64,000 nucleotides of DNA. Origin: Pseudoalteromonas sp. NC201. GTDB taxonomy: Bacteria; Pseudomonadota; Gammaproteobacteria; Enterobacterales; Alteromonadaceae. This document shows positions 2,981 to 36,641 of the stretch, in pieces. Numbering within the stretch: position 1 is the stretch's first letter; the number at the start of each line of letters is the position of its first letter. Where the stretch lies: NCBI RefSeq assembly GCF_002850255.1, contig NZ_CP022522.1:2541125-2605124 (forward strand), read 5' to 3'. The notes below the pieces were generated by a model. That model did not search any database, was not told the origin of the DNA, and saw only the letters and a list, made by a program, of their open reading frames with translations. A program made the position numbers and the translations under genes.

Positions 2981-2986
2981 TACACA

Positions 2987-4819: not shown

Positions 4820-4832
4820 TGTGTATCAACGA

Positions 4833-9092: not shown

Positions 9093-9195
9093 TGACGTTA
9101 AGAATTACTGAACACTAATTTAAATATATTCAGATATTCTTAATTAAAGCGCAAGCGTATTATTCCCTCATCGAACAATTATTGTGAAATTACGC

Positions 9196-10173: not shown

Positions 10174-10207
10174 AGCTAATATTGCAATAACCTAAACACA
10201 CACCATT

Positions 10208-10251: not shown

Positions 10252-10266
10252 AATATATCTTAAGTT

Positions 10267-10752
10267 ATGTCGTCACTTCCATTTCATGAAACGCTCGATC
10301 TCAGCCTCTGTGGCAAGTTAGGCCGAGTCCATAGAATTTGCCGTCAAGCCGTAACCCAAGCTGTGGAGCCACTCGGTTTTACCCAGCCACGCTGGACCGC
10401 CATGATGCATATTCATCATTTGGGTGAAGGTTGCACACAACACCAATTGGCGTGCAGTTTAGATATCGAAATGCCGAGCCTTACTCGCACGATGAAACAG
10501 TTAGAAGAAAATAACGTGATAGAGCGCCGCATTGATAAGCAAGACAAACGCTGTCGTAAAATCTACTTCACCGAACACGGGCAAGCCCAGTTAGCGCAGC
10601 TAAAGATGCGGATCAGTGAAGTGAAGGCACTTTTATATCATGGGCTTAGCGATGACGAGCTCAATGCTATCGCACATGCGTTGGTCAAACTTGAGAACAA
10701 TGCTCAGCAATGTTGTGACAATATTTCTGAAAATGGGAGTACCAGTGAGTAA
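10267..10752 (+). CDS. MarR/SlyA-family transcriptional regulator
   Basis: A 161-residue winged-helix regulator. The DNA-binding core is QHQLACSLDIEMPSLTRTMKQL with the wing RRIDKQDKRCRKIYFTEHG, placed as in SlyA/MarR. It is the first gene of a three-gene operon with an HlyD-type adaptor and a DUF2955 membrane protein. MarR repressors usually control such efflux genes and release DNA when a phenolic or lipophilic ligand or an oxidant binds. Several cysteines (for example CRKIYF and QQCCDN) could allow redox sensing, which is speculative. Confidence 0.9.
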   Translation: MSSLPFHETLDLSLCGKLGRVHRICRQAVTQAVEPLGFTQPRWTAMMHIHHLGEGCTQHQLACSLDIEMPSLTRTMKQLEENNVIERRIDKQDKRCRKIYFTEHGQAQLAQLKMRISEVKALLYHGLSDDELNAIAHALVKLENNAQQCCDNISENGSTSE

Positions 10753-11809: not shown

Positions 11810-11810
11810 T

Positions 11811-12842
11811 ATGAAAGTTGCATTAAACGCCAATGACCTAAGACAGATGCTGCGTATTGCAACTGGGAGTACGCTAGGCTTTGCACTAAGCAAACTGCTC
11901 AACTGGCCGTACGGTATCTTTTTTACCGTATATCCCATGCTGCTACTTGGGTTAGTACCAATGTTAAACGCACACATAGTGCGCCAGTTTATCTTAAGTG
12001 GGTTGGTCTGTGCCTTTTCGGTATTGGTGCTACAAGGGCTATTTGGTTTCCACCCTGCGTTAATGTCCTTACTCACCTTTGCCTTATTTGCCTTGTTGTT
12101 TTTGCAAATGAGCAAAGGCGTTAATTTCTTATTTGGTGCAATGAGTGTGGTGGGACTATCAATCCAACTTCATTTTGCCAGTTATGCTTCAACCAGTGGT
12201 GGCTTATATTCACTCATAGCCAGTAACTCTCTGGCTATTATCATTAGTATCGCAACCGCATATGTAATGCATTGGTTATTTCCGGACGTTACTGTGCGTC
12301 AATTACCGCCACGGCCAGCAAAAGATGCTGCAAGTATTCGCCATGAAGTCTTACTGTGCGCCACCGTAGCCACACTCTCATTTATGGTATTCCAAATCCT
12401 AGATTTACAAGATTCCGTTTCCGCCCAAGCGGCCTCAATATTAATCCTCTTTCCACTGAGCTGGAAAGCGGCGGGCACAGCAGGCTGGCAACGTGCAGTT
12501 GGCACGCTGATAGGTTGTAACTTGGCATTAGCAGCGCAAATCCTACTGCAAACCTATAGCCAAATTTTGCTTTTTCCAATTTTGATTTTATGGATCTTAG
12601 TTTTCATTTTTAGTCGCTATCACTTGCTAAGTGGTGGTGCTCCTGGGATTGGCTTTGGTATTATTACCACTTTTGGGATCTTGTTTGGTCAGTCTCTCGC
12701 GCCAAATCAAGATTTAATCTACAGCGCACTGTATCGCTTCAGTTCGGTGAGCGTTGCAATTACGGTAAGTCTCTGTGCAATCTACCTTATTCATCGCCTA
12801 CTTAACCACTTTAGTGCAACGCGCCACCATACCTACGCCTGA
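11811..12842 (+). CDS. DUF2955 / FUSC-like inner-membrane efflux component
   Basis: A 343-residue membrane protein with about ten TM helices in two repeats (the second begins near EVLLCATVATLSFMV), the layout of DUF2955 and related aromatic-acid exporter (FUSC/AaeB-like) proteins. The ATG at 11811 follows the HlyD stop by one base, so the two are coupled; the longer ORF from 11706 lies inside hlyD and is not used. With the HlyD adaptor it probably forms an exporter of aromatic acids or similar toxic compounds under MarR control. No outer-membrane factor is encoded here; a TolC would be supplied from elsewhere. Confidence 0.8.
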   Translation: MKVALNANDLRQMLRIATGSTLGFALSKLLNWPYGIFFTVYPMLLLGLVPMLNAHIVRQFILSGLVCAFSVLVLQGLFGFHPALMSLLTFALFALLFLQMSKGVNFLFGAMSVVGLSIQLHFASYASTSGGLYSLIASNSLAIIISIATAYVMHWLFPDVTVRQLPPRPAKDAASIRHEVLLCATVATLSFMVFQILDLQDSVSAQAASILILFPLSWKAAGTAGWQRAVGTLIGCNLALAAQILLQTYSQILLFPILILWILVFIFSRYHLLSGGAPGIGFGIITTFGILFGQSLAPNQDLIYSALYRFSSVSVAITVSLCAIYLIHRLLNHFSATRHHTYA

Positions 12843-12857
12843 ATAAAAGGAATCCAC

Positions 12858-13505
12858 TTGAAGCTTGGAAAACGCTTACAGACTTTGCATGATGTTGTTA
12901 CTGAAGACTATCAACATATTTGGGACTGCTGCTGCGATCATGGCCAGCTTGGCGCACAGTTTTTAGATTCGAGCCAAGCGCACATACACTTTGTTGATGT
13001 AGTCCCAGCGCTTATCGCGAAAGTGAAACTGGATCTCACACGCTTCTTTCCAGAAGCCGAAACGCGCTATAGCCTTTACACCCAAGACGTTGCGAAGATC
13101 CCTCTTGCACAATACTCAGGCAGGCAATTAGTGATCATCGCAGGTGTTGGCGGCGACTTAACCGCAGAACTGATGACAAGTCTTTGCTGCAATTTGCGTG
13201 ACGAGGTCGATTTCTTGCTTTGCCCAGTTCATCATCATTATACCCTGAGGCAAACCTTGCAATCTTTGCCACTTAAGCTGACCCATGAATCACTGGTTGA
13301 AGAAAATCGACGTATTTACGAAGTGCTCTATCTTACTTCAGGTAAGACTGGCGCTGCCATAACCCCGTTGGGCGAAGCGATTTGGCAACAAGGAACGCTT
13401 TCCAAACGCTATTTAGAGAAAACGTTGGATCATTATGCACGAGTTGCCAAAGGCAAACCCGAAGCGCAAGCCATTTTATTGGCTTATCAACACCTTACAC
13501 TATAA
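12858..13505 (+). CDS. TrmK-like tRNA (adenine-N1)-methyltransferase family protein
   Basis: A 215-residue SAM-dependent methyltransferase. It opens with KLGKRLQTLHDVV, then a nucleotide-binding region CCCDHGQLGAQFL, and carries VIIAGVGGDLTAEL and the DFLLCPVHHHYTLR segment, all as in TrmK/YqfN proteins that methylate A22 of bacterial tRNAs. It starts with TTG at 12858, supported by AAGGAA a few bases upstream. Its 3' end overlaps the convergent DUF998 gene by 11 bp. The Gram-negative members are little studied, so the exact target base is not established. Confidence 0.75.
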   Translation: MKLGKRLQTLHDVVTEDYQHIWDCCCDHGQLGAQFLDSSQAHIHFVDVVPALIAKVKLDLTRFFPEAETRYSLYTQDVAKIPLAQYSGRQLVIIAGVGGDLTAELMTSLCCNLRDEVDFLLCPVHHHYTLRQTLQSLPLKLTHESLVEENRRIYEVLYLTSGKTGAAITPLGEAIWQQGTLSKRYLEKTLDHYARVAKGKPEAQAILLAYQHLTL

Positions 13506-14088
13506 AACACAGCGCACTCAGCCAGACTAGCTGAGCGCCATAACTTAATCGCTGATAGAGCCCACTGTTACGCTTTTGCTTGTAAGCATTGGCAAGCTGA
13601 TAGCTAAAACCGATACAAACAAGTACACAAGCAGTAGAAAACCAAGCAAATAGCGAGCTTAAAGGGCTTACAAACCAAACCAATAAAGGAGCGATAAGTA
13701 AACTTAATAGCATTACCATGCCCGCGAAAGAATGAATATTACACGCTCGACTCGGCGAGGTTGTGTATGGATCGGGATCCATAGGAAAGAAACCTGCAAC
13801 AGCGGTTGCTAGACCATGACAAACAATCAAACCGCCAATAACACCTAACGCCCAGTTCCCTTCGGGTACCAAGATGATATAAAAACCAAAACAACAAAAT
13901 AGCAAGGCTAAGGGGTAATTATTAACTGCGGGAGACAATCGTTCTGTTGGACTACCACTGGCACCTAACTCACTACAAAATTGATTTTTGTGACTATAGT
14001 TTGGATAACGCTTGGCAACGCCATACACCCCTACCAGCATCCATATACTTGCTAGTATGCCAAAATAACTCACCAACTCTTGCAACAT
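13495..14088 (-). CDS. DUF998 family membrane protein
   Basis: About 197 residues and six TM segments. It has the DUF998 pattern: a first TM, the FCSELGASGSPTERLSP loop, and AGFFPMDPDP followed by a conserved histidine (CNIHSFAG) in the next TM. The start at 14088 is chosen over 14127 because AGGATAGG precedes it and the hydrophobic region begins directly. The function of the family is unknown. It overlaps the convergent methyltransferase gene by 11 bp. Confidence 0.75.
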   Translation of the reverse strand: MLQELVSYFGILASIWMLVGVYGVAKRYPNYSHKNQFCSELGASGSPTERLSPAVNNYPLALLFCCFGFYIILVPEGNWALGVIGGLIVCHGLATAVAGFFPMDPDPYTTSPSRACNIHSFAGMVMLLSLLIAPLLVWFVSPLSSLFAWFSTACVLVCIGFSYQLANAYKQKRNSGLYQRLSYGAQLVWLSALCFIV

Positions 14089-23604: not shown

Positions 23605-24006
23605 GCATATGTTCAGCGTTATTCAGTGAGATTAAGCTCGATGTACTGAATAACACGCAAACCATTTACAAACTTTCACATTGTTTTTTATACAAAAATT
23701 CACAACAAAAAATCAACTCACCCGCTTTAAAAACAAACTAATGAGAACGATTTTTATTTGTAAAAATAATACTTGTTGAGATTTATACTTTTTCAACACG
23801 TAAAGCCGGTACTTTGAACGACCCACATTAATTTCACTTTTCACAACAAAAATCACCAAGGATAACCTTTTGGCAATAACTCCCCTCTTTTCAAGCACGC
23901 AAAAACATGATTAAGATCGTTACGTTATAACATTTTTAAAAATAATCATTTGTATCAAATAAATGATGGTTCTTTTCACATTCGTTTTTGCAGTTGGAAT
24001 AACAAA
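23605..24006. promoter_or_regulatory. Promoter region of the metallophore operon with Fur-like and Zur-like sites
   Basis: 400 bp without a gene. A 10-bp inverted repeat GTTATTCAGT/ACTGAATAAC (23618-23627, 23645-23654) follows the esterase gene. AATGAGAACGATTTTTATT (23740-23758) matches the Fur 7-1-7 pattern at about 10 of 14 positions. At 23915-23937 the sequence around GTTACGTTATAACATTTTT has a right half nearly identical to the gammaproteobacterial Zur consensus TATAACATTTC and a partial left half (GTTA). A further AATAATCATT lies at 23941. These point to metal repression of the downstream operon; which metal is unclear. Confidence 0.5.
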
Positions 24007-26112
24007 ATGACAAGGTCACTCCTGACAGTTAGCGTGCTTAGTAGCTTATATTCTTCACTTAGTGTTGCCGAACAATCCATTGAAACAATTGATGTGCATG
24101 GCACTCGCGCGCCTCTTTACAGCACAAGAGACGTGAACGCTTCGGCGTTGGGGATGAAAGATCCACAGCTTCTTCCTATTTCCATTCAATCATTTTCTGA
24201 AGAACTGATCAGCAATCAAAGAGTAAAAACGCTAGGCGAAGTGCTTGCCAACGATGCTTCTGTTCAAAACACCTCAATTGGTACGGTTTTCGACTTTGTG
24301 AGTCTGCGTGGCTTTCAACTAGATTGGACTAACGGTCTAAGACGCGACGGTTTAGCGCTTGCCCCCTACCAAGATGTACCGCTAGAGAATATTCAGCGCA
24401 TTGATATCGTTAAAGGCCCGTCAAGTCTCGTATCAGGCTTTAACAACCCCGGCGGTACCATCAACTATGTGACAAAGCGCCCTACCATGGACGCCTTTTT
24501 GGATGTCACAACGGAAGTACGTAGCCGTGGAGGAAAGTATTTACACATCGACCTCGGTGGGCCAATTTCCGAAGAGCAAACGCTCGGCTATCGTATTAAT
24601 GCCGCAGCAGAGAAAAACGGTGACTTTACCGGTGGTGATGACTTAGAGCGCTATTTCTTTAGTGCAGCACTGGATTGGCAAGTCTCAGACCGCCTATTTA
24701 TCCGATTAGACGGCGATTACCAAGACAAAAGCACTGTATCACAGCCTTTGATAGGACTTGCCAGCGACCCCAATGATCCTGACCGTAAAATATTACCGCC
24801 CTATGTCGACACCAGTGATGTCTTGCTCGGACAACCTTGGGCAAAGTATCAAACCGAGTCATATAACCTTGCCGCACGTGCTGATTTTTGGTTGAACGAC
24901 ACCTGGCAATGGGTAAACCAAGCTGCGCTTTCTGGTAATGATAGATTTACCGTTTTTCCTGATATCTACTCGGTTGATACACAAGGTAATGTGCTGTCTG
25001 CCGCTATCCACATTACCCCAGACGAAACGTATGACACACTCTCCGCACATAGTTTTGTCAGCGGTCAACTTACCACCGCTGCAATTGAACATGAGCTAGT
25101 CGTCGGCGTTAGTATTCGTGATTATGAGTCAAAGGATGGGCGTTGGTTTGAGTTAACCAACCCCGTTGGCAATATTTTCAATCCAATTCATAGCAGTAAA
25201 CCGCAGTTCCCTGATTATCCAGAACCAACCAAAACTGAAGCCTCTGAAAGCGCGTTATTTATCACAGATACCTTGCACTTTAACGATGTATTTTATGCCA
25301 CCTTAGGGCTGCGTCATATTCAATACAAAAAAGAGCAAACTCTACCTGGCCAAACTAAAACCACGCTAGACGACCGAACTTTTAATACCCCCATCATAGG
25401 TCTTAACTACAACCCAAGCGATCAGCTCGCGTTTTATGCCAGTTACTCAGAAGGCGCGGGGGAAGGCGGCGTTGCAGTCATCGGCAGCGGTGCAATAAAC
25501 GAGGGCGAATCACTCGGCCCACAAGAAAGCGAACAAATTGAAGCTGGCATAAAATACCAAACGGACACCATGAACTACTCGATAGCCGTCTTCGAAATAG
25601 AAAAAATGTTGGAGTACCACAATCACATTACTAACTATTTCGTGCAAGACGGTGTCCAGTCACATAAAGGTATTGAGCTCAATGCTAGTGGTTCATTGGC
25701 TCACGGTCTTGCAACCGTAGCATCCATCACCTTGATGGACCCCAGCTTAGATAAGCTCGACGGCGAGCCCGCGCTTAATGGCAACACCCCAGCCAATGTG
25801 CCTGAATTTCAAGCAAATCTCTATGTCGACTATCAGCTGCCATTTTGGGAGGCGTTAAGCATCAATGCGGGTATTTTCCATGTTGATGAGCGCGAACAAA
25901 ACGTCAATAACACGCTAAAGCTACCAGCCTACACGCGCTTCGACTTGGGCGCTAAATACCACTTTACTGACATTAACACCACGCTACGACTCAAGGCCGA
26001 AAACCTGTTCGACAAAGAATATTGGCTATCTGGCGGTGCCAAAGGCATAGACTGGGGAGTCGCTCCCGGTCGTGGCCGCACCTTTATCGCCTCATTAAGC
26101 GTGAGCTTTTAA
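24007..26112 (+). CDS. TonB-dependent siderophore/metallophore receptor
   Basis: A 701-residue outer-membrane receptor from the ATG at 24007 (the longer frame from a TTG at 23950 is unlikely). A signal peptide ends near SVAEQ. The plug domain is recognisable by IETIDVHGTRAP (TonB-box region), LGEVLANDASV, IDIVKGPSSLVSG and GGTINYVTKRP. The 22-strand barrel ends with the aromatic C-terminus IASLSVSF and contains DLGAKYHFTD and LKAENLFDKEYW. It fits the siderophore-receptor subfamily. It is the first gene of a nine-gene operon with a 9-bp gap to the ABC ATPase, so it probably imports the metal complex of the operon's product. Confidence 0.93.
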   Translation: MTRSLLTVSVLSSLYSSLSVAEQSIETIDVHGTRAPLYSTRDVNASALGMKDPQLLPISIQSFSEELISNQRVKTLGEVLANDASVQNTSIGTVFDFVSLRGFQLDWTNGLRRDGLALAPYQDVPLENIQRIDIVKGPSSLVSGFNNPGGTINYVTKRPTMDAFLDVTTEVRSRGGKYLHIDLGGPISEEQTLGYRINAAAEKNGDFTGGDDLERYFFSAALDWQVSDRLFIRLDGDYQDKSTVSQPLIGLASDPNDPDRKILPPYVDTSDVLLGQPWAKYQTESYNLAARADFWLNDTWQWVNQAALSGNDRFTVFPDIYSVDTQGNVLSAAIHITPDETYDTLSAHSFVSGQLTTAAIEHELVVGVSIRDYESKDGRWFELTNPVGNIFNPIHSSKPQFPDYPEPTKTEASESALFITDTLHFNDVFYATLGLRHIQYKKEQTLPGQTKTTLDDRTFNTPIIGLNYNPSDQLAFYASYSEGAGEGGVAVIGSGAINEGESLGPQESEQIEAGIKYQTDTMNYSIAVFEIEKMLEYHNHITNYFVQDGVQSHKGIELNASGSLAHGLATVASITLMDPSLDKLDGEPALNGNTPANVPEFQANLYVDYQLPFWEALSINAGIFHVDEREQNVNNTLKLPAYTRFDLGAKYHFTDINTTLRLKAENLFDKEYWLSGGAKGIDWGVAPGRGRTFIASLSVSF

Positions 26113-26121
26113 GGATAATTC

Positions 26122-26841
26122 ATGACTACACCTGTTATTCAAATCAATAACCTGCAAAAGCGCTTTGGTGAATACCAAGCGTTACAGGGATTAAACTTGA
26201 GCGTACATCAAGGTGAAATTCTAGCGCTGCTAGGCCCAAATGGTGCAGGTAAAACCACCACGATTAATTGCTTACTGGGCTTTTTACAACCGGATGCCGG
26301 GGAAATCACCATCGCTGGAATTAATCCACAACATGACGTAGTAACGGCAAGGCAGCAACTGGCTTATATTCCTGAACAAGTCGCGCTCTATCCGCGACTT
26401 AGCGGACTTGAGAATCTCGCGTATTTCAGCAAAATGGCCAGCATAGAAAAGACCGACGAGGCCTTTCGCACACTGCTCAGTGAAGTAAAACTGCCAAGTC
26501 ACGCTGTAGACAAACCCGTTGCAACCTATTCAAAAGGGATGCGACAAAAAGTGGGCATAGCCATTGCCCTCGCAAAACAAGCCAAGGCATTGATCTTAGA
26601 TGAGCCTACATCAGGTCTTGATCCTTCAGCCAGCCATGAATTTAGCCAGCTCATTCAGTCATTAGCAAAGCAAGGCGTTGCGATTTTAATGGCGACCCAC
26701 GACTTATACCGCGCTCAAGAAGATGCTCATCGCGTGGCAATTATTAATCAAGGGCAATTAGTCGATACCTTAGTCTATGAACAACTGCAAGAAGTCCAAC
26801 TTGAATCCGTTTACCTCAAACATATCAAGGTGGGTGTCTGA
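26122..26841 (+). CDS. ABC transporter ATP-binding protein (ABC-2 type)
   Basis: A 239-residue ATPase with Walker A GPNGAGKT (G38-T45), signature YSKGMRQKVGIA, Walker B LILDEPTSGLDP and H-loop ATHDLY. It resembles the ATPases that energise ABC-2 type exporters and NosF-like systems rather than siderophore importers. Its stop overlaps the next permease start (TGATG). With the two DUF3526-like permeases it forms a complete exporter-type ABC unit inside a receptor operon. Confidence 0.92.
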   Translation: MTTPVIQINNLQKRFGEYQALQGLNLSVHQGEILALLGPNGAGKTTTINCLLGFLQPDAGEITIAGINPQHDVVTARQQLAYIPEQVALYPRLSGLENLAYFSKMASIEKTDEAFRTLLSEVKLPSHAVDKPVATYSKGMRQKVGIAIALAKQAKALILDEPTSGLDPSASHEFSQLIQSLAKQGVAILMATHDLYRAQEDAHRVAIINQGQLVDTLVYEQLQEVQLESVYLKHIKVGV

Positions 26842-28241
26842 TGTTTCAAACGACATTAAAAAAGGAATGGCTCGATACCAAGCGGCAGGGACAAGCGCTT
26901 TGGCTTGGAGGCATTGCAGTATTGCTGCTCTTGCTTGCCTGCTTGACCGGTTTTAAAAGCCACCAAAGCTATCAGCAAGCCGTCACGGAAGTGTCCCAAT
27001 CAGAGCAATTACGCTGGCTAAATCAAGGTGAAAAAGGTCCCCATTCCGCCGCCCACTACGGTATTTATGTGGTCAAACCCACCACCCCATTGGCTGCACT
27101 CGACGCGGGATTACAAGCATACCAAGGGAATGTGTTAAGGCTTGAGGCTCATATTCGCAACGATAGCATGTTTAGAAGTGCGCAAGATAACTTGCCGATG
27201 TCACGTTTTGGTAGCTTATCACCCGCCTTTGTGCTGCAAGTGTTACTACCGCTATTGATTATATTAATTGGCTACCCACTACTTGCCCGAGAGCGTGAGC
27301 AAGGCACCTTAAAACAACTGCTCGCATCGGGCGCAAGCCCTGCAAAGCTGTTTATCGCCAAATGTGCGCTGCTTTTTGCTATTTCTTGCTTATTTTTATT
27401 GCCTGTCGCGCTTTTTTTACTTTATAGCCAAGTAACAAGCGCGGAGCCTCATACACTCAGAAGTGGACTATTTTTACTATTTTATTTGGTTTACTTATTG
27501 CTTTGGTCGTTACTCACCACCACGCTTTCAAGTTTACTTCCAACGGCAAGGCGCGCATTGGTAGCGCTATTAACCATTTGGGCCCTTACAACACTTTTAC
27601 TACCAAAACTGGCGATGAATATCGCAACCACCATTCATCCGCAAGGTTCAGGTCAAGCGTTTCAAGCAAAGCTTGAAAGTGAGGTTTATACCGAGGCACG
27701 AGTTGAAGCAATCGCAAAGTTCAAACAACAAACATTGACTCAATATGGTGTTAGCAATGTGGAAGACTTGCCCTTTGACTATGCCGGAGCGCAACTCCAA
27801 TTTGGTGAACAATACGCAGATAAAATCTTTGACCGCTTATTTTCAGCGCGTTTAGCTCAACTAGAAGCGCAATCACAAAGCTATCAACTTGCAGGAATGT
27901 TAACGCCGTTTATCGCGATACAAACGCTGTCGATGGCCACCGCCGCCAGCGACTTTACCCACCAGCAAGCATTTGAGAATGCGGCAGAGCAGCACCGCCG
28001 CCTGATGCAAGAGGTGCTTAACTTTAATCAAAGAGATCACGGTCACAAGGCGGACGGACATTACACCGCGGGCGAGGAATTATGGCAGCAGATCCCAAAG
28101 TTCGCATTCCAATACCCCAATTTCATTCGTTACCTGCCTCACTACGTTATAAGCCTGTTTAGCCTGAGCTTTTGGTTGATTGCGCTGGTGTTATTGAGTT
28201 TCTTCTCGATTAAAAAACTGCGCTTGGAGGAGCAAAGATGA
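26841..28241 (+). CDS. ABC-2 type permease, DUF3526-like (first of two)
   Basis: A 466-residue membrane protein. One N-terminal TM is followed by a large periplasmic loop (about 45-130), a cluster of TMs containing LLAREREQGTLKQLLASG (the cytoplasmic coupling motif of ABC-2/NosY-like permeases), a second large extracytoplasmic region (about 265-430) and a final TM. This layout and the paired occurrence fit DUF3526 permeases. It is translationally coupled to the ATPase and overlaps the second permease by 4 bp. Confidence 0.82.
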   Translation: MFQTTLKKEWLDTKRQGQALWLGGIAVLLLLLACLTGFKSHQSYQQAVTEVSQSEQLRWLNQGEKGPHSAAHYGIYVVKPTTPLAALDAGLQAYQGNVLRLEAHIRNDSMFRSAQDNLPMSRFGSLSPAFVLQVLLPLLIILIGYPLLAREREQGTLKQLLASGASPAKLFIAKCALLFAISCLFLLPVALFLLYSQVTSAEPHTLRSGLFLLFYLVYLLLWSLLTTTLSSLLPTARRALVALLTIWALTTLLLPKLAMNIATTIHPQGSGQAFQAKLESEVYTEARVEAIAKFKQQTLTQYGVSNVEDLPFDYAGAQLQFGEQYADKIFDRLFSARLAQLEAQSQSYQLAGMLTPFIAIQTLSMATAASDFTHQQAFENAAEQHRRLMQEVLNFNQRDHGHKADGHYTAGEELWQQIPKFAFQYPNFIRYLPHYVISLFSLSFWLIALVLLSFFSIKKLRLEEQR

Positions 28242-29707
28242 AACGCTTAATGTTAGCTACTGAGTTTAAAAACCTCTGGCGAGAAAAACTCGTACTCGCG
28301 CTGTTTGTGACCACTACCATGCTTGCACTAGTGGCATTTTTTAACGCCCATTACTTTGCTAAAAAACAGCATGACGTGGTACTTGCCGCACAGCAAATGC
28401 AGCAACAGGCCATCCAAGATGCCAAAGCTGGATTACCCGAAAGACTCGCCAGTACAGCAGACTATAAATGGTGGGAAGACCCATACGACCTGCGCGGGCA
28501 GGCTTTTTACTTAATGCAAAATTACGCCACCAAAACCCCGCTTGCAACGTCGCCAATCGCAACAGGGCAAGCCGACGTATTACCTTACTATTTTAAGATG
28601 CTAATCAAAGAAAAACAGCACATCGTTCATCAATATGACTATGTTCATCCGCTATCTCTGTTGTTAGGCCAGTTCGATTTAAGTTTTGTGATTGTCTATT
28701 TACTGCCATTGCTCATTATTGGCATTTGCTTTAATGCCTTGGCAAGTGAACGCCAAGATGGGCAGCTAAGACTACTGATGCTTCAAGGAGGCAGTGCGAC
28801 CCGCCTTCTGACCTATCAATTATTGCTGCGAAGCGCGTTAATTGTGCTGCCATTTTTAAGTATTAGTAGCCTGCTTTTAATAACAATACGAGAGCAGCTA
28901 GGGGTGGTTGAACTGCTGAGCTATAACCTTATCGCACTATGTTATTCTGGGTTTTGGATTGCCTTAACCGCTTGGGTAAATAGCAGAGCCAAAAGTGCAG
29001 CAAACAACGCAGCTACCTTAGTCACCTGTTGGCTTGCCTTAGTGATTGTGGTTCCAGCTTTGGTCAATACCAGCATCGCTTTGCTTGACCCAACCCCTTC
29101 ACGAATTCACTATATAGATAGCCTCCGTGCCGCTAGCGACGATGCCCAAAAAGCGAGTGAAAAGACCTTAGCTCAGTATTTTCAAGATCATCCAGAACTT
29201 GCGAAGAATGGCAGTGGTTCCAGCGATTACGCAACCAAAAAAATCGCCACCATTAATTCTGTTGAACGCGCAATGACAGCCCAAGATTTACGCTTTTTAA
29301 CTGCGCAACAAGCACAGCAACATAATGCACAAAAGCTACAGTATCTCTCCCCCGCACTCATCGCACAAACACTGCTGGTTGATTTAGCGGGCAATGGATT
29401 AGCACGTCATCACGCCTTCATGGCGGAAGTTGAAGCTCATCATCAAGCACTACAAGGTTTCTTTGCCAACGAAATTGCCAAAGCCAACCAAAGAGGAGAC
29501 TTTGCTCCTTGTGAGGGTTGTAGCGCAAAGCCAACGCTCACGGACTTAGCTGATATTCCTCAATTTAGCAGTGACTTTGCCACACCAGTGAACAACTACA
29601 CGCCATTAATCTGGTTGCTGCTACTAGCCGTCGGCCTGCTCCTTATAGCAAAACGCCGTGTCAACAAGATAGACAGTGCAAACAACAAAGAGGTGTTAGT
29701 CGTATGA
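28238..29707 (+). CDS. ABC-2 type permease, DUF3526-like (second of two)
   Basis: 489 residues, same architecture as the preceding permease: N-terminal TM, periplasmic region, coupling motif LASERQDGQLRLLMLQG, four or five TMs, a long second extracytoplasmic domain and a C-terminal TM (LIWLLLLAVGLLLIA). The second soluble domain contains DFAPCEGCSAKPTL, with two cysteines that could bind metal or form a disulfide. It overlaps the Y4yA-like gene by 4 bp. The pair probably forms a heterodimeric exporter with the ATPase. Confidence 0.82.
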   Translation: MKRLMLATEFKNLWREKLVLALFVTTTMLALVAFFNAHYFAKKQHDVVLAAQQMQQQAIQDAKAGLPERLASTADYKWWEDPYDLRGQAFYLMQNYATKTPLATSPIATGQADVLPYYFKMLIKEKQHIVHQYDYVHPLSLLLGQFDLSFVIVYLLPLLIIGICFNALASERQDGQLRLLMLQGGSATRLLTYQLLLRSALIVLPFLSISSLLLITIREQLGVVELLSYNLIALCYSGFWIALTAWVNSRAKSAANNAATLVTCWLALVIVVPALVNTSIALLDPTPSRIHYIDSLRAASDDAQKASEKTLAQYFQDHPELAKNGSGSSDYATKKIATINSVERAMTAQDLRFLTAQQAQQHNAQKLQYLSPALIAQTLLVDLAGNGLARHHAFMAEVEAHHQALQGFFANEIAKANQRGDFAPCEGCSAKPTLTDLADIPQFSSDFATPVNNYTPLIWLLLLAVGLLLIAKRRVNKIDSANNKEVLVV

Positions 29708-31038
29708 GTGATGCCTTCACTGCAAAATTGCATCCGCAAACGCAGAGCCTGCTATCGGAGCACCAAGCCAAGTTATTTGAATGGGCGGCAGCATTGGGAG
29801 CGCCGCTACATTTAGTGTTTCCTCAGCGTTTTGCGGAAAATATCGAAACCCTGCAAGCTAACTTAATAAAGCTCGGGCTTGAACATGAGATTTATTTTGC
29901 CAAAAAAGCCAACAAAGCCCAATGTTTTACTCAAGTCGCGTCCAATCACGATATAGGAATAGACGTGGCTAGTGTGCAAGAGTTTGAACTTGCCCTAAGC
30001 GGTGGTATTCAAGGTGTAAAAATTGGTGTATCTGGTCCGCATAAATCAGATGCACTACTTAGCTTAGCACTTGTGCATCAAGCACTTGTCGCCATAGATT
30101 CAAGTGCTGAGTTAAGCTCCATCATTACACTGGCCCGCCAGCGAAAGCGCCCAGCGCGAGTGCTACTGCGTTTACAAACACAACCAACTAAAGCCTCACG
30201 CTTTGGTAGTTCGCTGTGCCAGCTTACGCCGCTATTAGCACAGTGCCGAGAATACAAGGAATGGGTAAGCTTAGAAGGATTTAGCTGCCACTTAAGCGGG
30301 TACTGCCCACAAGCACGTGGCGAGAGTATCCATACCTTAGTCGGTGCAATAGACGAGGCCAAGCAAATGGGGCTGTCGCCATCAAAAGTGAATATTGGCG
30401 GTGGCCTGCCCGTCTCCTACTTACAGAATGAGCAGTGGCAACAAGCCTTGGACTTTGAATGCTTTTTTGCAGATAAAACCTTTGCAGGATTTTATCCCTA
30501 CCATAACAAACAAAGCCCTGCGGACACCTTACACGCTATTTTGGCAGTGAAGAACGCGCATGGACAAACCGCATTAGCGGCATTACGCCAAAGGAACCTT
30601 ACATTGATGCTTGAACCTGGGCGCGCACTGCTCGACGAGGCTGGCATTAGCTTGTTTAAAGTGCAAGGGACAAAGCCGCACCTAGGCACATCAGACTGCC
30701 ATATCGCCACACTTTCGGGCTCAAGCTTATCATTGTCAGAACAGTGGTTTGAAAGCGAATACTTGCCGAGTCCGCTGTTACTCACGGCACATTCAAACCG
30801 CAAACAAGGAACGTATCGCGTTGCTTTTGGCGGCGCAACCTGCCTAGATAACGACATGATAAGCTGGCGGTTTATTCCCTTGTCGCAACTACCGCAGCGC
30901 GATGACCTAATGGTTTACCTCAACACTGCAGGATATCAAATGGATTCGAATGAATCTGAATTTCACTCTATGCCATTGCCACGAAAAATCGCCGTAACGT
31001 GGGAGCACAACAGACTTTCTTGGCAACTACTTAGCTAG
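29704..31038 (+). CDS. Y4yA-family PLP-dependent decarboxylase (SbnH-like fold-type III)
   Basis: A 444-residue alanine-racemase-fold enzyme of the ornithine/diaminopimelate decarboxylase superfamily. The PLP lysine lies in FAKKANKAQ (K68), followed by GIDVASVQEFELAL, the LEGFSCHLSGY histidine segment, NIGGGLPVSY and LEPGRALLDEAG. These features match the Y4yA family, related to SbnH, which decarboxylates a citryl-diaminopropionate intermediate in staphyloferrin B synthesis. Here the substrate must differ or be made elsewhere, because no citrate ligase is present. It is coupled to the permease upstream and followed 37 bp later by the SbnA-like gene. Confidence 0.8.
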   Translation: MSDAFTAKLHPQTQSLLSEHQAKLFEWAAALGAPLHLVFPQRFAENIETLQANLIKLGLEHEIYFAKKANKAQCFTQVASNHDIGIDVASVQEFELALSGGIQGVKIGVSGPHKSDALLSLALVHQALVAIDSSAELSSIITLARQRKRPARVLLRLQTQPTKASRFGSSLCQLTPLLAQCREYKEWVSLEGFSCHLSGYCPQARGESIHTLVGAIDEAKQMGLSPSKVNIGGGLPVSYLQNEQWQQALDFECFFADKTFAGFYPYHNKQSPADTLHAILAVKNAHGQTALAALRQRNLTLMLEPGRALLDEAGISLFKVQGTKPHLGTSDCHIATLSGSSLSLSEQWFESEYLPSPLLLTAHSNRKQGTYRVAFGGATCLDNDMISWRFIPLSQLPQRDDLMVYLNTAGYQMDSNESEFHSMPLPRKIAVTWEHNRLSWQLLS

Positions 31039-31075
31039 AAAAACACCCAACAACACAACGTAAAGGAGCCTATTT

Positions 31076-32134
31076 ATGAACATAAATGCGCAGCATTCAC
31101 TCGCCTCGACATTATCCCTAACCCCCTATTTAAGGGTTTCGCAAAGTATTGGTAATACCCCGCTAATGCAGTTTTTAAGTCTACCAAACGGTAGCAAACT
31201 GTATCTTAAACTTGAGCAGTTTAACCCCACCGGTAGCACTAAGATCCGAATGGCGAAGTCTATGTTAGATGAAGCAGAAGCCAGTGGCCAACTGAAGCCG
31301 GGGGGCTGGGTCGTTGAGTCAACCTCTGGCAATACCGGCGTTGGCCTTGCGCTGCTTGCAGCTGAGCGTGGCTATCGCTTTACCGCACTTGTGGATAACC
31401 ATGCGGCAAAAGAGAAAATTAGTAATATGAAAGCCTTTGGCGCGGAAGTGATCTGCGTTAGCGAAGCTGGAGACGACAGCCTATCTACTGATATTCGCGA
31501 TGCAATGGCCGCGAAGCTGGCACAAGAGCAAGGCGCATTTTGGACCGCCCAACACAATAATTTTGCCAATAGCCGCGGTTATACAGGACTTGCGCAAGAG
31601 GTCTTTCATGAACTTGGTGAACACATTAGTCACCTTGTTGGTGCGGTTGGCACAGGTGGGTCGCTATGCGGCACAACAAGGGCTCTGCGGGATTTAGGTT
31701 GTCATCACCTCACAACGATTGGAGTTGAACCTGTAGGGTCTGTGATTTTTGGTGGACCAGGACTGAATTATCATCAGTCAGGAACGGGGACGCCGGAAGG
31801 CGCTGAGATAGGTCCCGTTATTGAGTATGAACTTATCGACAAAGGCGTGAAGGTATCTGACAAACAAGCGTTTAATACCGCCAGGTACCTTGCCAAGCAC
31901 TACGCCCTAATGGTCGGTGGCTCGGCAGGTGGAGTTATATACGAAGCGCTACAGGCGTTAAAAACCGCCCCCGCCGATAGCTTATTTGTGGTACTCGTTT
32001 GTGACGGTGGCGAGAAATATCTCGATACCGTATTCAATGATGATTGGATGGCAAAACACGACCTTATCGACATTAACATCGAGCAAGAGCTCGATGACCT
32101 ATTAACGCAATATAAACCTGCCGCGAGAGCCTAA
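31076..32134 (+). CDS. sbnA: SbnA-like N-(2-amino-2-carboxyethyl)-L-glutamate synthase
   Basis: A 352-residue fold-type II PLP enzyme of the cysteine synthase family. The PLP lysine is K56 in NPTGSTKIRMA, the phosphate-loop STSGNTGVG follows, and GSVIFGGPGLNY and CDGGEKYLDTVFNDDW match regions that distinguish SbnA from ordinary CysK. SbnA condenses O-phospho-L-serine with L-glutamate to form ACEGA, the precursor of L-2,3-diaminopropionate. The next gene encodes its partner SbnB, 2 bp downstream, which strengthens the assignment. A ribosome site AAAGGAG precedes the ATG. Confidence 0.8.
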   Translation: MNINAQHSLASTLSLTPYLRVSQSIGNTPLMQFLSLPNGSKLYLKLEQFNPTGSTKIRMAKSMLDEAEASGQLKPGGWVVESTSGNTGVGLALLAAERGYRFTALVDNHAAKEKISNMKAFGAEVICVSEAGDDSLSTDIRDAMAAKLAQEQGAFWTAQHNNFANSRGYTGLAQEVFHELGEHISHLVGAVGTGGSLCGTTRALRDLGCHHLTTIGVEPVGSVIFGGPGLNYHQSGTGTPEGAEIGPVIEYELIDKGVKVSDKQAFNTARYLAKHYALMVGGSAGGVIYEALQALKTAPADSLFVVLVCDGGEKYLDTVFNDDWMAKHDLIDINIEQELDDLLTQYKPAARA

Positions 32135-32136
32135 CC

Positions 32137-33120
32137 ATGACCCAACAAACTATTCTGCCGATACTAAATGAAGCCCGACTGGCGCAACTTGATTTTCCCT
32201 ATAGTAAAGTCATTGAGGTGGTGGAAAATGCCTTTCGTTCACTGCACCACCCTGACTCTGCCAACCCACTCAAAGTGATTATGACGCCACAAGATGGTCG
32301 ATCCATTGCCTATAGTATGGCTGGCCGAGATGCCGCAAGTAATACCGTAGGGTTTAAGGTGGTCTATGAATACGACCCAGACAGAAGTCGTAACCAATAT
32401 CAATTCTATTCCTTTATTTTCCTTTGCGATGATGCCACAGGCCACCCTGTGGCCCTAATGGATGTAAAAGAACTAGGCCCTATGCGCACATCAGCCACCT
32501 CCGCCTTGTTTGCAAAGTATGCCGTTCATTCAGATGCCAAAAATGCGTTGGTTGTAGGAACAGGTGTTCAAGGGCAAATCGCTTTACCAATGCTCATCAC
32601 GGCATTACCACAACTCACACACTTAACCGTCCACGGCAGCTATCAAGCAGGTTTGGAAGCGGTTCAGCAAAAACTAAAGGAGCATCACCCACAGCGACAA
32701 GTTGCGGTATCACAAGACTTAGAAGCTTCAGTAAGACAAGCCGATGTGATCCTTGCCGTTACTGGGTTATCCGCCAAAGAGAACATTAAATATGAATGGT
32801 TAAAACCGGGCGCTGTGGTGATTTTAGTTGGCTATGGGATCGAAAAGCCAGTGCTACACCGAGCTGATAGATTGCTCACAACGGATGCAGAACAAATGAA
32901 GGTCACCGGAGACGATTTATTAGACGAGAACGATAAGCTACCCGCCGTTGATGCGACATTGACGGAAATACTAAATGGTGAAAAGCCGGCACGAACCCAC
33001 CCTGATGAAATTATCTTTGTCTATAACAGCGGCATGATCATTACTGACGTGGCACTCGGAAGAGCGGTTGCAGACTTTGCCATCACACAAGAAAACGTGG
33101 AGGAAGTAACGTTATGGTAG
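32137..33120 (+). CDS. sbnB: SbnB-like diaminopropionate synthase (ornithine cyclodeaminase family)
   Basis: A 327-residue NAD-dependent enzyme of the ornithine cyclodeaminase/mu-crystallin family. KVVYEYDPDRSRNQYQFYSF and LMDVKELGPMRTSATSAL form the substrate-binding half; VVGTGVQGQIALPML is the dinucleotide-binding glycine motif. SbnB oxidatively cleaves ACEGA to L-2,3-diaminopropionate and 2-oxoglutarate. Its pairing with SbnA separates it from true ornithine cyclodeaminase. It overlaps the MATE gene by 7 bp. Confidence 0.82.
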   Translation: MTQQTILPILNEARLAQLDFPYSKVIEVVENAFRSLHHPDSANPLKVIMTPQDGRSIAYSMAGRDAASNTVGFKVVYEYDPDRSRNQYQFYSFIFLCDDATGHPVALMDVKELGPMRTSATSALFAKYAVHSDAKNALVVGTGVQGQIALPMLITALPQLTHLTVHGSYQAGLEAVQQKLKEHHPQRQVAVSQDLEASVRQADVILAVTGLSAKENIKYEWLKPGAVVILVGYGIEKPVLHRADRLLTTDAEQMKVTGDDLLDENDKLPAVDATLTEILNGEKPARTHPDEIIFVYNSGMIITDVALGRAVADFAITQENVEEVTLW

Positions 33121-34490
33121 CTTCAGCGCGCGCCGATATTTTTAAAGTAAGTCAGCTCGCAGGGCCGCTTATTCTGACCAATCTGCTCTACGTGGCAATT
33201 GCAACGATAGATCTTATCATGCTCGGTATGTTGAGCCCGTTAGAACTGGCTGCAGGCGGCCTCGCCATTGGTATTTTTAATCAATTTAGAACCATGGGAA
33301 CGGGCGTAGTCACGGCAACGGGTAATTTGGTATCTGATGCAATCGGCAAGGCTAAACTAGATCAGATCACTCCTCTTTTTAACGCCAGCATGCTTATCGG
33401 AACATTTTTGGGTCTGCTATTCGCCGCCGCGATGTTTGCCATAGAGCCATTTTTAAGGTTTATCGGTACATCCGAGGCAATTGCCAATTTGACGACCCAA
33501 TATTTAACCGTTGTCGCTTTGGGCTTATTACCCTGTTTTTGGTTTCAAAGCGTGCGGCATTTTAGTGTTGGATTGAAAAGACCAGGGCCATTGATGTTAA
33601 TAACGGGTGTATCTGTTGTACTCACTATCGTGCTCAATTACGGTCTAATTTTTGGTCAGTTTGGCCTACCACAACTCGGCTTTGTGGGGGTTGCAGCCGC
33701 CACGTGTATCGTGCTGTATTTATCGTTTTTACTGTTTGTACTATTTGCCAAGCGCGATGACGTACTCAGCCCCTACCTCACTATAAAGTTTTGGCAAACC
33801 GACCGTGAAGCACTTGGTAAAACATGGAAAATGGGCGTGCCAATTGGCGCAACTTACGGGCTTGAAGCTGGTTTTTTCACCGTGCTTGCGTTGTTTGTGG
33901 CAACACTCGGCGTAAATGCCTTAGCCGCCCACAACGTGGTAAGCCAAATGGTGTACATCGTATTTATGGTATCTGCTGGCATTTCATCTGCTTGTTCTAT
34001 TTACATCAGCGAAGCCAATGCTGCGGGGGACTTTCATCATGCAAAACGCATCGGCAATTTGGGGATTATTTGCGGTGCCGTGGTCATGTCTGTTTTCGCC
34101 TTAATCTATTTATTCACACCCGAATTTGTACTGCGGCCATTTTTAAGTGCAGAAGAATTACAAAACTCCGATGTCGTTGTTATCGCTATAGAGCTACTCG
34201 TTATTGCCGCCTTTTTGCAGTTTTTTGACGCGTGGCAAAATATCGGGCTCGGTATCCTGCGTGGACTTGGCGATGTTAAAAGCACCCTAATGCTGTCTTT
34301 AATTGGTTATTGGTGCATTGGTCTTCCCGGTGCGTGGTTATTTCAAGAATTTTTCTCTTTGGGTATTTTGGGCGTTTGGTACGCCTTAATGTTAGGACTT
34401 GCGGTCACAGCGCTATCTGAGATTTGGCTTTTTAATCATAGGGCTAATCGTTTACTTGAGCCCACATCACTCAAGGAGCAAAACGCATGA
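33114..34490 (+). CDS. MATE family efflux transporter
   Basis: A 458-residue transporter with 12 TM segments in two similar halves, each starting with a MATE-type motif (GPLILTNLLYVAIATIDLIM and GVPIGATYGLEAGFFTVLAL). MATE proteins exchange Na+ or H+ for small cationic or zwitterionic compounds. It sits between the biosynthetic genes, overlapping both neighbours (7 bp and 4 bp), which suggests that it exports the product of this operon. Confidence 0.9.
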   Translation: MVASARADIFKVSQLAGPLILTNLLYVAIATIDLIMLGMLSPLELAAGGLAIGIFNQFRTMGTGVVTATGNLVSDAIGKAKLDQITPLFNASMLIGTFLGLLFAAAMFAIEPFLRFIGTSEAIANLTTQYLTVVALGLLPCFWFQSVRHFSVGLKRPGPLMLITGVSVVLTIVLNYGLIFGQFGLPQLGFVGVAAATCIVLYLSFLLFVLFAKRDDVLSPYLTIKFWQTDREALGKTWKMGVPIGATYGLEAGFFTVLALFVATLGVNALAAHNVVSQMVYIVFMVSAGISSACSIYISEANAAGDFHHAKRIGNLGIICGAVVMSVFALIYLFTPEFVLRPFLSAEELQNSDVVVIAIELLVIAAFLQFFDAWQNIGLGILRGLGDVKSTLMLSLIGYWCIGLPGAWLFQEFFSLGILGVWYALMLGLAVTALSEIWLFNHRANRLLEPTSLKEQNA

Positions 34491-35599
34491 CAACGACAAT
34501 GCCAAACCCAGCCCGCAAGGAAGTCATTGCACTACCGCCCTATGGTGCGGGACAGACCATTGAGCAAGCAGCAGCGCGTAATCTCCACCCCAATATGATA
34601 AACCTCTCGGTGAATGAAAACCCTTTAGGGCCAAGTCCTGCTGCGCTTAATGCTTTTAAAGCACAACTGCATACCGCTAGCTGCTATCCAGACAGCCAAT
34701 GCACTGAGCTAAATGAGCAGCTGGCAACTAAACTTAACGTTGCCAGAGAACAAATTGTACTCGGCAATGGCTCTGAGGATGTACTCTCAATGCTGTGTAA
34801 AGCTTTCCTCAGTCAAGGCGATAAGGTGTTAGTGGCCAAGCCTACCTTTGCGCTTCATGGGATTTACGCCAATATGATGGGGGCAAAGGTCCTAGAAGTG
34901 CCGATGCAAAGCGATTTGTCCTATCGAATTGATGATTGGCTCGATGCTATCGCATGCCACCCAGATTTAAAAATGCTTATGCTTGCTAACCCGTCGAATC
35001 CTATAGGTTGTACGTTTGATGCCAATAATTTGCAGCGCCTCATTGATGCCTGTCCGCTCAATACGGTTATCGTCATTGATGAAGCGTACTGCGAATATGC
35101 CCAAGGCCATAAACAGTTTGTCGATAGCTTAACACTACTTCAAACACAGCCTCGTCCCTACGCGGTATTACGGACTTTTTCCAAAGCCTATGGTCTTGCA
35201 GGGCTTAGAGTGGGCTACGGCGTAATGGCAAATGCACAATTGGCGGATTATCTGCACCGCGTACGTACACCTTACAATGTAAATCGACTAGCACAACTTG
35301 CAGCGATCGCGGTACTACAAGATCCCTCCTATTTGGCAGACACGGTCACGCAAACGAATCGCGAAAGGGAAAAACTCAGCGCCGCCCTCACCGAGCTGGG
35401 TTATTTTGTCGCGCCAAGTCTAGCCAACTTTTTATTTATTGATGTCAAGCAGCCGTCTGCGCATGTCGCATCTTTGCTGCTGCAACAAGGAATAATGATA
35501 AAACCTTGGCTAGAATCAGGTTTTGATCATTTTGTAAGAGTAAGCATCGGGCTTCCGGAGCAAAACCTTAGGGTGCTTGAAGCCTTTAAACAGTTGTAA
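34487..35599 (+). CDS. HisC-like class II aminotransferase
   Basis: A 370-residue fold-type I PLP enzyme close to histidinol-phosphate aminotransferases: NLSVNENPLGPSP, LGNGSEDVLSML, NPSNPIGC, VIDEAYCEYA, and the PLP lysine in RTFSKAYGLAGLRVGY. It overlaps the MATE gene by 4 bp and ends the operon. There is no other histidine gene around, so it more likely transaminates a pathway intermediate than histidinol phosphate. Which intermediate is unknown. Confidence 0.85.
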   Translation: MTTTMPNPARKEVIALPPYGAGQTIEQAAARNLHPNMINLSVNENPLGPSPAALNAFKAQLHTASCYPDSQCTELNEQLATKLNVAREQIVLGNGSEDVLSMLCKAFLSQGDKVLVAKPTFALHGIYANMMGAKVLEVPMQSDLSYRIDDWLDAIACHPDLKMLMLANPSNPIGCTFDANNLQRLIDACPLNTVIVIDEAYCEYAQGHKQFVDSLTLLQTQPRPYAVLRTFSKAYGLAGLRVGYGVMANAQLADYLHRVRTPYNVNRLAQLAAIAVLQDPSYLADTVTQTNREREKLSAALTELGYFVAPSLANFLFIDVKQPSAHVASLLLQQGIMIKPWLESGFDHFVRVSIGLPEQNLRVLEAFKQL

Positions 35600-35604
35600 G
35601 TATC

Positions 35605-35623
35605 GCCCTCTGTGAGGGCTTTT
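35605..35623 (+). terminator. Terminator at the end of the metallophore operon
   Basis: GCCCTC (35605-35610) pairs with GAGGGC (35614-35619) around a three-base loop, followed by TTTT. It lies 6 bp after the HisC-like stop and directly abuts the stop of the convergent DUF1015 gene. Confidence 0.75.
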
Positions 35624-36512
35624 AAGCACAAGCTGCCTGCTGATTTAAATGGTAAAGTACTTGGCTGTCGGCCTTATGAGTAAATAAGGTCGACTTTTCT
35701 GGAAAGTACTTGCCTGCTTTGGCAGCAGCAAAGATGTCTTCAATTATGGGGGCGCGACAGATGGCGGTTACAATATGAGCGTCATCACTTAGCTCAACTT
35801 TATTTTTAGACCACAGCTCCTCAAACGCTGGCAGTGCCTGCAGTGCTCTACGCAACTGGGTCTGAATAAGATAAGAATCGCTTGTCGCGCGTTGGAGAGC
35901 AAAACATAAAGCAGCTTTCCCCAACCAAATAGTATAATCGCCCTCAGTCTCCGGGGATTCACAGATATCAAAATCGCTAAGGTGCTGTTTGAATTTAGTA
36001 ACATCTACAGCTTGTGTGTAAGATGCCTGCACCGCGAAACTCGTTATCACCGCATCTTGCTGTGGAACTAACCATGCCATCATCCGAGATTGAGGCGCAT
36101 GACGTTGGCTGGCAGCAAACATCCTGTGATGTCCATCAGCAATTAGCCATTGTTGGTGCATTGCGATCTGCTGTCTGAATTCTTGTAGCACGTGACGATT
36201 TTCAACAGCATAGAGGCGATGAGTACACTCACCGCAATCACTGTGCCACTGCGCAGTTTCAACACATTCCGCTTGCCATCGCACCTTGTCCAAATTAAGT
36301 TTTCCGACCAAAAGACACGGGGGTAACAGCAACTTCTCGAGCTGAACACGCTTTTTCAGCGCCATAGCATGGGTAACCGAAACCGACTCGTGAGGCAGAA
36401 TCGCTTGCTCAGGTAACACTGAAACGTCAAGCTCGGCCAAAATGCCTGTAACCAAAATACCACCTTGCTCCACTTGGTAAAGATGAAGTGGCCCATCCGT
36501 TATTGTGATCAT
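35622..36512 (-). CDS. DUF1015 family protein, possible L-serine kinase
   Basis: A 296-residue protein. ATG at 36512 (MITITDGPLHLYQ) is chosen; the upstream extension is hydrophobic noise. DUF1015-type landmarks are the central LIADGHHRMFAAS and, near the C-terminus, KYFPEKSTLFTHK. Related ParB-like/SerK folds, including SbnI of the staphyloferrin B cluster, phosphorylate free L-serine. SbnA needs O-phosphoserine, so a serine kinase beside an sbnA-sbnB pair makes biochemical sense. It is shorter than usual DUF1015 proteins. The activity is an inference; the family match is moderate. Confidence 0.6.
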   Translation of the reverse strand: MITITDGPLHLYQVEQGGILVTGILAELDVSVLPEQAILPHESVSVTHAMALKKRVQLEKLLLPPCLLVGKLNLDKVRWQAECVETAQWHSDCGECTHRLYAVENRHVLQEFRQQIAMHQQWLIADGHHRMFAASQRHAPQSRMMAWLVPQQDAVITSFAVQASYTQAVDVTKFKQHLSDFDICESPETEGDYTIWLGKAALCFALQRATSDSYLIQTQLRRALQALPAFEELWSKNKVELSDDAHIVTAICRAPIIEDIFAAAKAGKYFPEKSTLFTHKADSQVLYHLNQQAACA

Positions 36513-36641
36513 AAAATAAACCTTGCACCATTTTAGATACAATATAACATACCATAAATTGAGTAACATCAAGTTTACATGACAATTTATACTGACTTGT
36601 TTAGTGTGGTTATTGCTTTGCCTCAATAATCGGAAAAAAAT

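Follow-up and report, generated by a model that had tools for sequence, protein, structure and literature searches.

Which compound is made by a metallophore-type operon that holds neither a nonribosomal peptide synthetase (NRPS) gene nor a gene for an NRPS-independent siderophore (NIS) synthetase? The question is raised by nine plus-strand genes between positions 24007 and 35599 of a 64,000-nucleotide stretch of the Pseudoalteromonas sp. NC201 genome (contig NZ_CP022522.1, positions 2,541,125 to 2,605,124; hereafter, the window), which face a convergent gene for a DUF1015 protein. The genome holding the window measures 5.38 Mb in two contigs (coded here as C1 and C2 of G000) and, judged by its nearest named relatives, falls in the P. 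piscicida/flavipulchra group. The operon very likely belongs to the kind of ligase-free clusters known for ethylenediaminedisuccinic acid (EDDS) and for the ethylenediaminesuccinic acid hydroxyarginine siderophore (EDHA). Together with the DUF1015 gene, it probably forms a complete system that makes, exports and re-imports an aminopolycarboxylate metallophore, and Zur-controlled zinc scavenging is its likeliest role; zinc is reasonably likely to be the metal, and a product other than EDDS, with one half made by a HisC-like aminotransferase, is put forward tentatively. The HisC-type clusters with Zur-type operators seem to add a third, as yet undescribed, branch to the EDDS/EDHA family; among the open-licence PMC papers searched, no title or abstract opening describes such a cluster.

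The sequence-only reading that preceded this analysis had described nine genes packed with overlaps or gaps of less than 40 bp; the set was verified, neighbouring genes overlapping by at most 7 bases and standing at most 37 bases apart. Its biosynthetic part encodes a Y4yA-type decarboxylase of the type III pyridoxal phosphate (PLP) enzymes (29704..31038; PF02784), an SbnA-like PALP enzyme predicted to catalyze beta-replacement (31076..32134; PF00291), an SbnB-like NAD(P) enzyme of the ornithine cyclodeaminase (OCD) family predicted to catalyze reductive coupling (32137..33120; PF02423), a MATE exporter (33114..34490; PF01554, TIGR00797 above its cut-off) and a HisC-like aminotransferase (34487..35599; TIGR01141 above its cut-off). 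The name Y4yA is that of the sequence-only reading and of this analysis, with no family model behind it. A TauD-family oxygenase was not found among the operon genes by the Pfam scan.

EDHA is reported as a siderophore of Streptomyces (PMC8914351, PMC10702961), and the EDDS of Amycolatopsis japonicum is described as Zur-regulated, with aspartate as precursor and neither an NRPS nor an NIS route (PMC4993170, PMC9252823). In S. scabiei 87.22 (L057, TauD type) nine genes were called from 2808 to 13845, a run of 11.0 kb with an oligopeptide-type importer and TauD; it fits the published EDHA cluster, given as 11 kb and scab_5231-5311 (PMC8914351), as matched by extent and genes, not by locus tags. 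Streptomyces sp. MA5143a (L099) is the EDHA reference strain of PMC10702961. An S. scabiei SbnB homologue said to adjoin an NRPS (PMC11479980) is presumably at another locus. In the order of Nocardia, 28 of 397 genomes gave a match, and 20 of the 30 match places were examined further. The four-gene operon SbnB-Y4yA-SbnA-MATE of L209 (genome G446), which carries a Zur-type box, TGAAAATGATTGTCT (other strand), 45 bp before SbnB, is taken here, provisionally, to be the [S,S]-EDDS cluster of A. japonicum. The EDDS-type label was assigned in this analysis to seven rows without TauD and HisC, the similar L203 and L206 being labelled 'none', and a Zur-type box stands before SbnB in four of the seven (L209, L210, L212 and L213). 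The window's Y4yA-type decarboxylase is 42-43% identical to its counterparts in L209, L057 and L099, and its SbnA-like protein is 49-53% identical to the EDDS/EDHA-type homologues. This core, common to EDHA-type and EDDS-type clusters, supports the proposal of the sequence-only reading that the genes serve a metallophore, probably a small, EDDS-like aminocarboxylate made without ligases. Its chemistry was thus right in kind; its premise that such metallophores always need NIS or NRPS enzymes and its claim of a new chemistry class had to be dropped because EDDS and EDHA are already published (PMC8914351, PMC10702961, PMC4993170, PMC9252823).

The operon holds no NIS or NRPS gene, and the IucA/IucC NIS synthetase family (PF04183) has no match anywhere in the window's genome. 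That genome is NRPS-rich, with 63 condensation domains, most of them located in very long open reading frames, so the earlier statement that no ligase is seen stands for the operon and for NIS synthetases and fails for NRPS genes genome-wide. NIS synthetases were searched in 34 of the genomes behind the 80 related loci described below; the NRPS count covers the window's own genome alone. The finding named beforehand as speaking against the proposal, that relatives of the cluster always carry NIS or NRPS genes, does not hold for NIS: an NIS match was absent in 22 of the 34 genomes, among them 11 of 19 HisC-type genomes, and in the remaining 12 the matches lie outside the cassette stretch. Overlap with the cassette is excluded by the coordinates in nine of these 12 and, for L050, L052 and L089, by the unequal lengths of the contigs involved.

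The search for relatives, with one genome per species, gave 297 Y4yA relatives, of which the best 80 loci were kept; gene presence near Y4yA was judged by tblastn within ∼10 kb, and for gene calling in high-GC loci a codon-position model replaced longest open reading frame (ORF) calling. Among these 80 loci, Y4yA is accompanied by SbnA in 76, SbnB in 78 and MATE in 75, several of the misses (four of the five for MATE) being at contig ends. The partner genes are mutually exclusive: TauD alone was found in 49 loci, HisC alone in 22, both in none and neither in nine (three at contig ends). SbnA, SbnB and MATE are present in all 22 HisC loci, and TauD was found in none of these. Most Streptomyces, Burkholderia and kin share the layout TauD-SbnB-Y4yA-SbnA-MATE. 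Pseudomonas, Microbulbifer and a few Actinobacteria have Y4yA-SbnB-MATE-HisC-SbnA, of which Acinetobacter shows a variant with SbnA separate on the opposite strand, and the window's layout, Y4yA-SbnA-SbnB-MATE-HisC, occurs in Pseudoalteromonas, Thalassomonas and Cellvibrio. Within the genus, a Y4yA match at E ≤ 1e-10 was obtained in 13 of 108 genomes, 11 of them strong (at least 58% identity) and two weak (30-32%).

In an SbnB tree of 47 hand-picked rows, all 17 HisC-type rows fell into a single clade (support 100), and the seven EDDS-type rows made up a clade of their own (support 99). The wider trees were built without near-copies and short rows (62 rows for Y4yA, 50 for SbnB and 48 for MATE), and L041 and L047 were left out of the hand-picked later trees (47 and 46 rows). 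In the wider SbnB tree the HisC rows cluster with the HisC-less L041 and L047 among them, HisC being found in 17 of the 19 rows of the branch, across phyla; in the MATE tree the HisC rows cluster with L047 inside. The actinobacterial HisC loci nest within the Gram-negative ones, which suggests transfer. Core clusters without detected TauD or HisC were also observed, namely L035 and L037 (Burkholderia, one of them B. anthina), L061, L084 (Kiloniella) and L047 (Xylophilus), and may make other family members. B. anthina clade II has been reported with an EDHA operon (PMC10702961).

Upstream regions were scored with a Zur matrix of 11 sites. Six came from ZnuA-family promoters of relatives, chosen from 30 ZnuA-family loci most of which had no convincing site, and five came from three places in the window's genome, taken from a pattern search with 13 matches a strand, fewer than its reversed control (42). 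With this matrix, a putative Zur-type operator, ATCGTTACGTTATAACATT (23916..23934, plus strand, 72 bp 5' of the receptor ATG), scores 16.9 as the top site of the 64-kb window, 1 of 300 shuffles being as good. The third best site of the window (score 14.2) is a second motif match, TATGTTATATTGTATCTAA (36533..36551, minus strand), placed 20 bp 5' of the DUF1015 ATG. Eighteen HisC-side rows (the window, 16 HisC loci and L041, counted here though no HisC was detected in it) scored 11.2 to 20.7, and twelve TauD Gram-negatives scored -8.0 to 5.6, with no overlap; the scoring regions were set by hand, the starts for L042 and L044 having been shifted 150 bp upstream after the site was seen. The near-copies L023, L024 and L027 and the loci with another box type (L080, L082, L089) were left out on the HisC side, as were L036 (contig end) and L055 on the TauD side. 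In 16 of the 18 rows at most 1 of 300 shuffles was as good; L025 stands at 8.

Boxes for Fur, DmdR and the Zur of Streptomyces were sought with consensus strings. DmdR-type iron boxes, at 0 of 60 shuffles, precede 29 of 35 actinobacterial TauD operons and none of the three actinobacterial HisC ones, in a scan that used a wrong operon start for L085 and L091. S. bikiniensis (L080) carries one and the same 15-mer, TGAAAATGAGTGTCA, 5' of Y4yA and ahead of a ZnuA-family gene. ACGTTATAACAT was rejected as a motif marking a regulon throughout the genome: its 19 matches (at most one mismatch) were outnumbered by those of its reversed control, and among the 18 other matches 11 had no ORF start nearby.

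Besides the HisC of this operon, the genome carries the his-operon HisC at C2:335183 between hisD and hisB; the two are 28% identical. The HisC-like protein scores as HisC-type, far over the aspartate-aminotransferase models, and with the PRK05166 model it reached 462.2 against a cut-off of 540. Of 23 aligned cluster HisC sequences, the 16 inspected all carry Lys at the position of an Arg in the his-operon HisC, a residue that contacts the substrate phosphate. This replacement points to an amino acid, not a phosphate ester, as the substrate.

The DUF1015 protein (35622..36512, minus strand) shows the SbnI/SerK fold and is predicted to be an SbnI/SerK-type free serine kinase. Sequence searches for SbnI relatives found none; the matches of a profile search were limited to 5v4d (E 0.024, partial) and 1vk1 (E 1.4, with DGHHR aligned). 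Its candidate operator TATGTTATATTGTATCTAA is conserved unchanged in P. aurantia (L028), though the DUF1015 proteins there share just 26-28% identity, and Thalassomonas has a palindromic counterpart; across eight rows, 0 to 10 of 400 shuffles were as good (7 of 400 for the window). Both the DUF1015 gene, inside the range 24007..36512, and the TauD/HisC split with its operators had been overlooked by the sequence-only reading.

What the analysis shows is which genes are present, that the core is shared, that the partner genes exclude each other, and the clades, the operator motifs and the kinase fold. A route may be proposed, all of its chemistry inferred by analogy with EDDS. The DUF1015 kinase would phosphorylate free L-serine, and the SbnA-like enzyme would join the O-phosphoserine to an amino acid (aspartate, on the EDDS analogy), giving an N-(2-amino-2-carboxyethyl)-amino acid. 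Y4yA is predicted to decarboxylate the 2,3-diaminopropionate (Dap) part of this N-substituted intermediate, and loss of the Dap carboxylate would leave an N-(2-aminoethyl)-amino acid. The HisC-like enzyme would convert a second amino acid to its 2-oxo acid, which the SbnB-like enzyme would couple reductively to the free amine, leaving two amino acids bridged by -CH2CH2-. MATE would export the chelator, and the TonB receptor would re-import the metal complex. We propose, with less than even confidence, that the Zur-controlled zincophores of the HisC branch are a widespread family not described before. A repurposed HisC would provide the second 2-oxo acid, nitrogen-rich or aromatic in kind, from which the SbnB-like enzyme would build an asymmetric ethylene-bridged chelator, e.g., Asp-CH2CH2-His; the oxygenase would tune the core to iron (EDHA) and the aminotransferase to zinc, with DUF1015 as the Gram-negative serine kinase feeding the core. 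Histidine-derived imidazolepyruvate as the HisC-made 2-oxo acid is our boldest guess.

Transport genes complete the operon. The TonB-dependent, siderophore-type outer-membrane receptor (24007..26112; PF00593, PF07715) starts at the ATG chosen by the sequence-only reading, the mechanical ORF opening earlier at a TTG at 23950. It is followed by a DrrA-like ATP-binding cassette (ABC) transporter ATPase (26122..26841; PF00005, TIGR01188 score under its cut-off) and two ABC-2 permeases with DUF3526 (26841..28241 and 28238..29707; both PF12679, PF12040). This ABC-2/DUF3526 transporter is conserved within the window's group and is present outside it in L041, L048 and L050. A TonB-receptor match accompanies all 19 Gram-negative HisC-type loci. 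The neighbour scan covered two of the three actinobacterial HisC loci: both encode a Peripla_BP_2 protein, accompanied by two importer-type ABC genes in L080 and by a permease in L089. A further HisC-type cluster, L200 (G244), consists of Y4yA, SbnB, HisC and SbnA followed by two importer-type ABC matches and one binding-protein match, with no MATE match.

Several observations weigh against the zincophore proposal. The sequence-only reading had named the enzymes SbnA and SbnB, and the family relationship stands; the equivalog cut-offs were missed by both, with 236.7 bits against 349.95 for the SbnA-like protein (TIGR03945) and 106.3 against 326.9 for the SbnB-like protein (TIGR03944). A cystathionine beta-synthase model scores the SbnA-like protein slightly higher (244.7, likewise under its cut-off), and its nearest solved relative is a cystathionine beta-synthase, the SbnA structures 5d84-5d87 ranking behind among the Protein Data Bank (PDB) matches. 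The top PDB match of the SbnB-like protein is 4m54, a 'putative ornithine cyclodeaminase' (E 7e-22), which we take to be S. aureus SbnB. Judged by sequence, the two proteins are hence relatives of SbnA and SbnB, not certified members. The HisC-like protein, for all its lysine, still passes the cut-off of TIGR01141 (histidinol-phosphate transaminase family; 310.8 bits against 276.55). Y4yA trees place the window's group away from the Pseudomonas group, splitting the HisC branch, and DUF1015 is present in only seven of the 80 loci, all from Pseudoalteromonas and Thalassomonas. The matrix sites were selected for their resemblance to Zur sites. When the six sites from outside the window's genome are used alone, ATCGTTACGTTATAACATT ranks third in the window, and it differs from GTTATANTATAAC at two of 12 fixed core bases. 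The counterpart of the operon site in P. aurantia (L028) is weak (19 of 300 shuffles), the best Zur site of L026 lies elsewhere, at -259, and a further pair of actinobacterial HisC clusters is divided, Y4yA being preceded by a Zur-like site that matches 12 of 15 positions in L200 and by none in L201.

The operon might make EDDS itself, HisC merely supplying oxaloacetate from aspartate for the second half. This is rather unlikely, even if EDDS-type L209 manages with just the four shared genes and a Zur-type box and aspartate is named as the EDDS precursor (PMC9252823), since the EDDS-type rows lack HisC and stand in a separate clade, the other branch of the SbnB tree keeps HisC across phyla in all rows but L041 and L047, and the enzyme scores far higher as HisC-type than with aspartate-aminotransferase models. 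Another reading, in which the operon only feeds Dap or diamine building blocks to an NRPS line of the same genome, draws on its 63 condensation domains, the NRPS count covering this one cassette genome, and is very improbable, as the cassette is conserved across genera with its own exporter and, in Gram-negatives, its own receptor, and as relatives are reported to make EDDS and EDHA outside NRPS and NIS routes (PMC8914351, PMC10702961, PMC4993170).

A Fur-regulated iron siderophore like EDHA, the Zur-like sites then being AT-rich promoter elements (-10 boxes), is also an unlikely product. The receptor falls in a siderophore subfamily (TIGR01783, 345 bits against a cut-off of 223.5), and ATCGTTACGTTATAACATT overlaps a -10-like TATAAC; against this reading, Pseudomonas Zur boxes often overlap the -10 element as well (PMC10393844), and the position seen here fits theirs. 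Fur-like sites stand beside the Zur-like ones in L026 (13 of 14) and in the Pseudomonas loci L030, L044, L065 and L072 (11-12 of 14), and the window itself has a Fur-like site at -268, which matches 15 of 19 positions (0 of 60 shuffles) and in the 7-1-7 form 10 of 14 (103 of 300). Against an iron product stand the Zur scores, which part the HisC side from the TauD Gram-negatives without overlap; the three actinobacterial HisC loci, which lack DmdR boxes and one of which shares its box with a ZnuA-family gene; and the DUF1015 gene, which carries a Zur-type operator of its own. The iron side of the contrast is clear in Actinobacteria only, because a Fur-like 19-mer at 0-1 of 60 shuffles was found in just four of 13 Gram-negative TauD loci. 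Staphylopine is reported to be under dual control (PMC8000910), and dual control may operate here as well.

If the zincophore proposal is true, one three-enzyme core is retuned between iron and zinc by the swap of a single accessory enzyme. EDDS-like chelators are biodegradable substitutes for EDTA. The clusters named in the papers cited here are mostly actinobacterial, with Burkholderia added; the third branch would span marine and soil Gram-negatives, with a few Actinobacteria nested among them. The DUF1015 protein would gain a testable function as a serine kinase. A possible zinc route would also be at hand for a genus in which 105 of 108 genomes show no ZnuA (PF01297) match, such a match being present in 11 of 14 control genomes. 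The missing ZnuA was rejected as proof that the operon is the main zinc route, as only 11 of the 108 genomes have a strong Y4yA match.

Further Zur-type boxes were observed in the window's genome. The tandem boxes GTTATAGTATAAC and GTTATATTATCAC (G000:C1:2175572-2175622; L125, L132) precede the gene for a TonB receptor that includes a carboxypeptidase-regulatory-like domain and may be a zinc receptor of the ZnuD type. A second tandem pair (G000:C2:895181-895215; L135, L136) precedes a gene whose 437-aa, lipoprotein-like product has no Pfam match, contains an Asp/His-rich stretch and may be a zinc chaperone. A single box at G000:C1:2996616 (L134) lies between a GTP cyclohydrolase II gene and the gene for a 407-aa protein without a Pfam match.

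Comparison with known systems places the operon nearest to the EDDS and EDHA clusters. The EDHA clusters (L057, L099) hold SbnB-like, Y4yA, SbnA-like and MATE genes in one run as the window does, the four shared proteins being 43-53% identical between the window and S. scabiei, but add a TauD-family oxygenase and DmdR-type boxes, whereas the window has HisC, a Zur-type operator, a TonB receptor, the ABC-2/DUF3526 transporter and the predicted DUF1015 kinase. EDDS-type L209 has the same four core genes with a Zur-type box ahead of the first; its proteins are 37-49% identical to those of the window and fall in a separate clade, and no HisC, receptor or DUF1015 was found alongside. With the staphyloferrin B cluster of Staphylococcus aureus (sbnA-I), the window shares an SbnA-like and an SbnB-like enzyme, a type III PLP decarboxylase and an SbnI-fold kinase; unlike that cluster, it has no NIS synthetases and misses the SbnA/SbnB equivalog cut-offs. 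Unlike the clusters for the opine-like zincophores staphylopine and pseudopaline, the window gave no match to nicotianamine-synthase-like or opine-dehydrogenase families among the ten genes scanned. These zincophores are likewise ligase-free and are reported to be exported, re-imported through a TonB receptor in Gram-negatives and regulated by Zur (PMC10393844, PMC8000910), as is predicted for the product of the window's operon.

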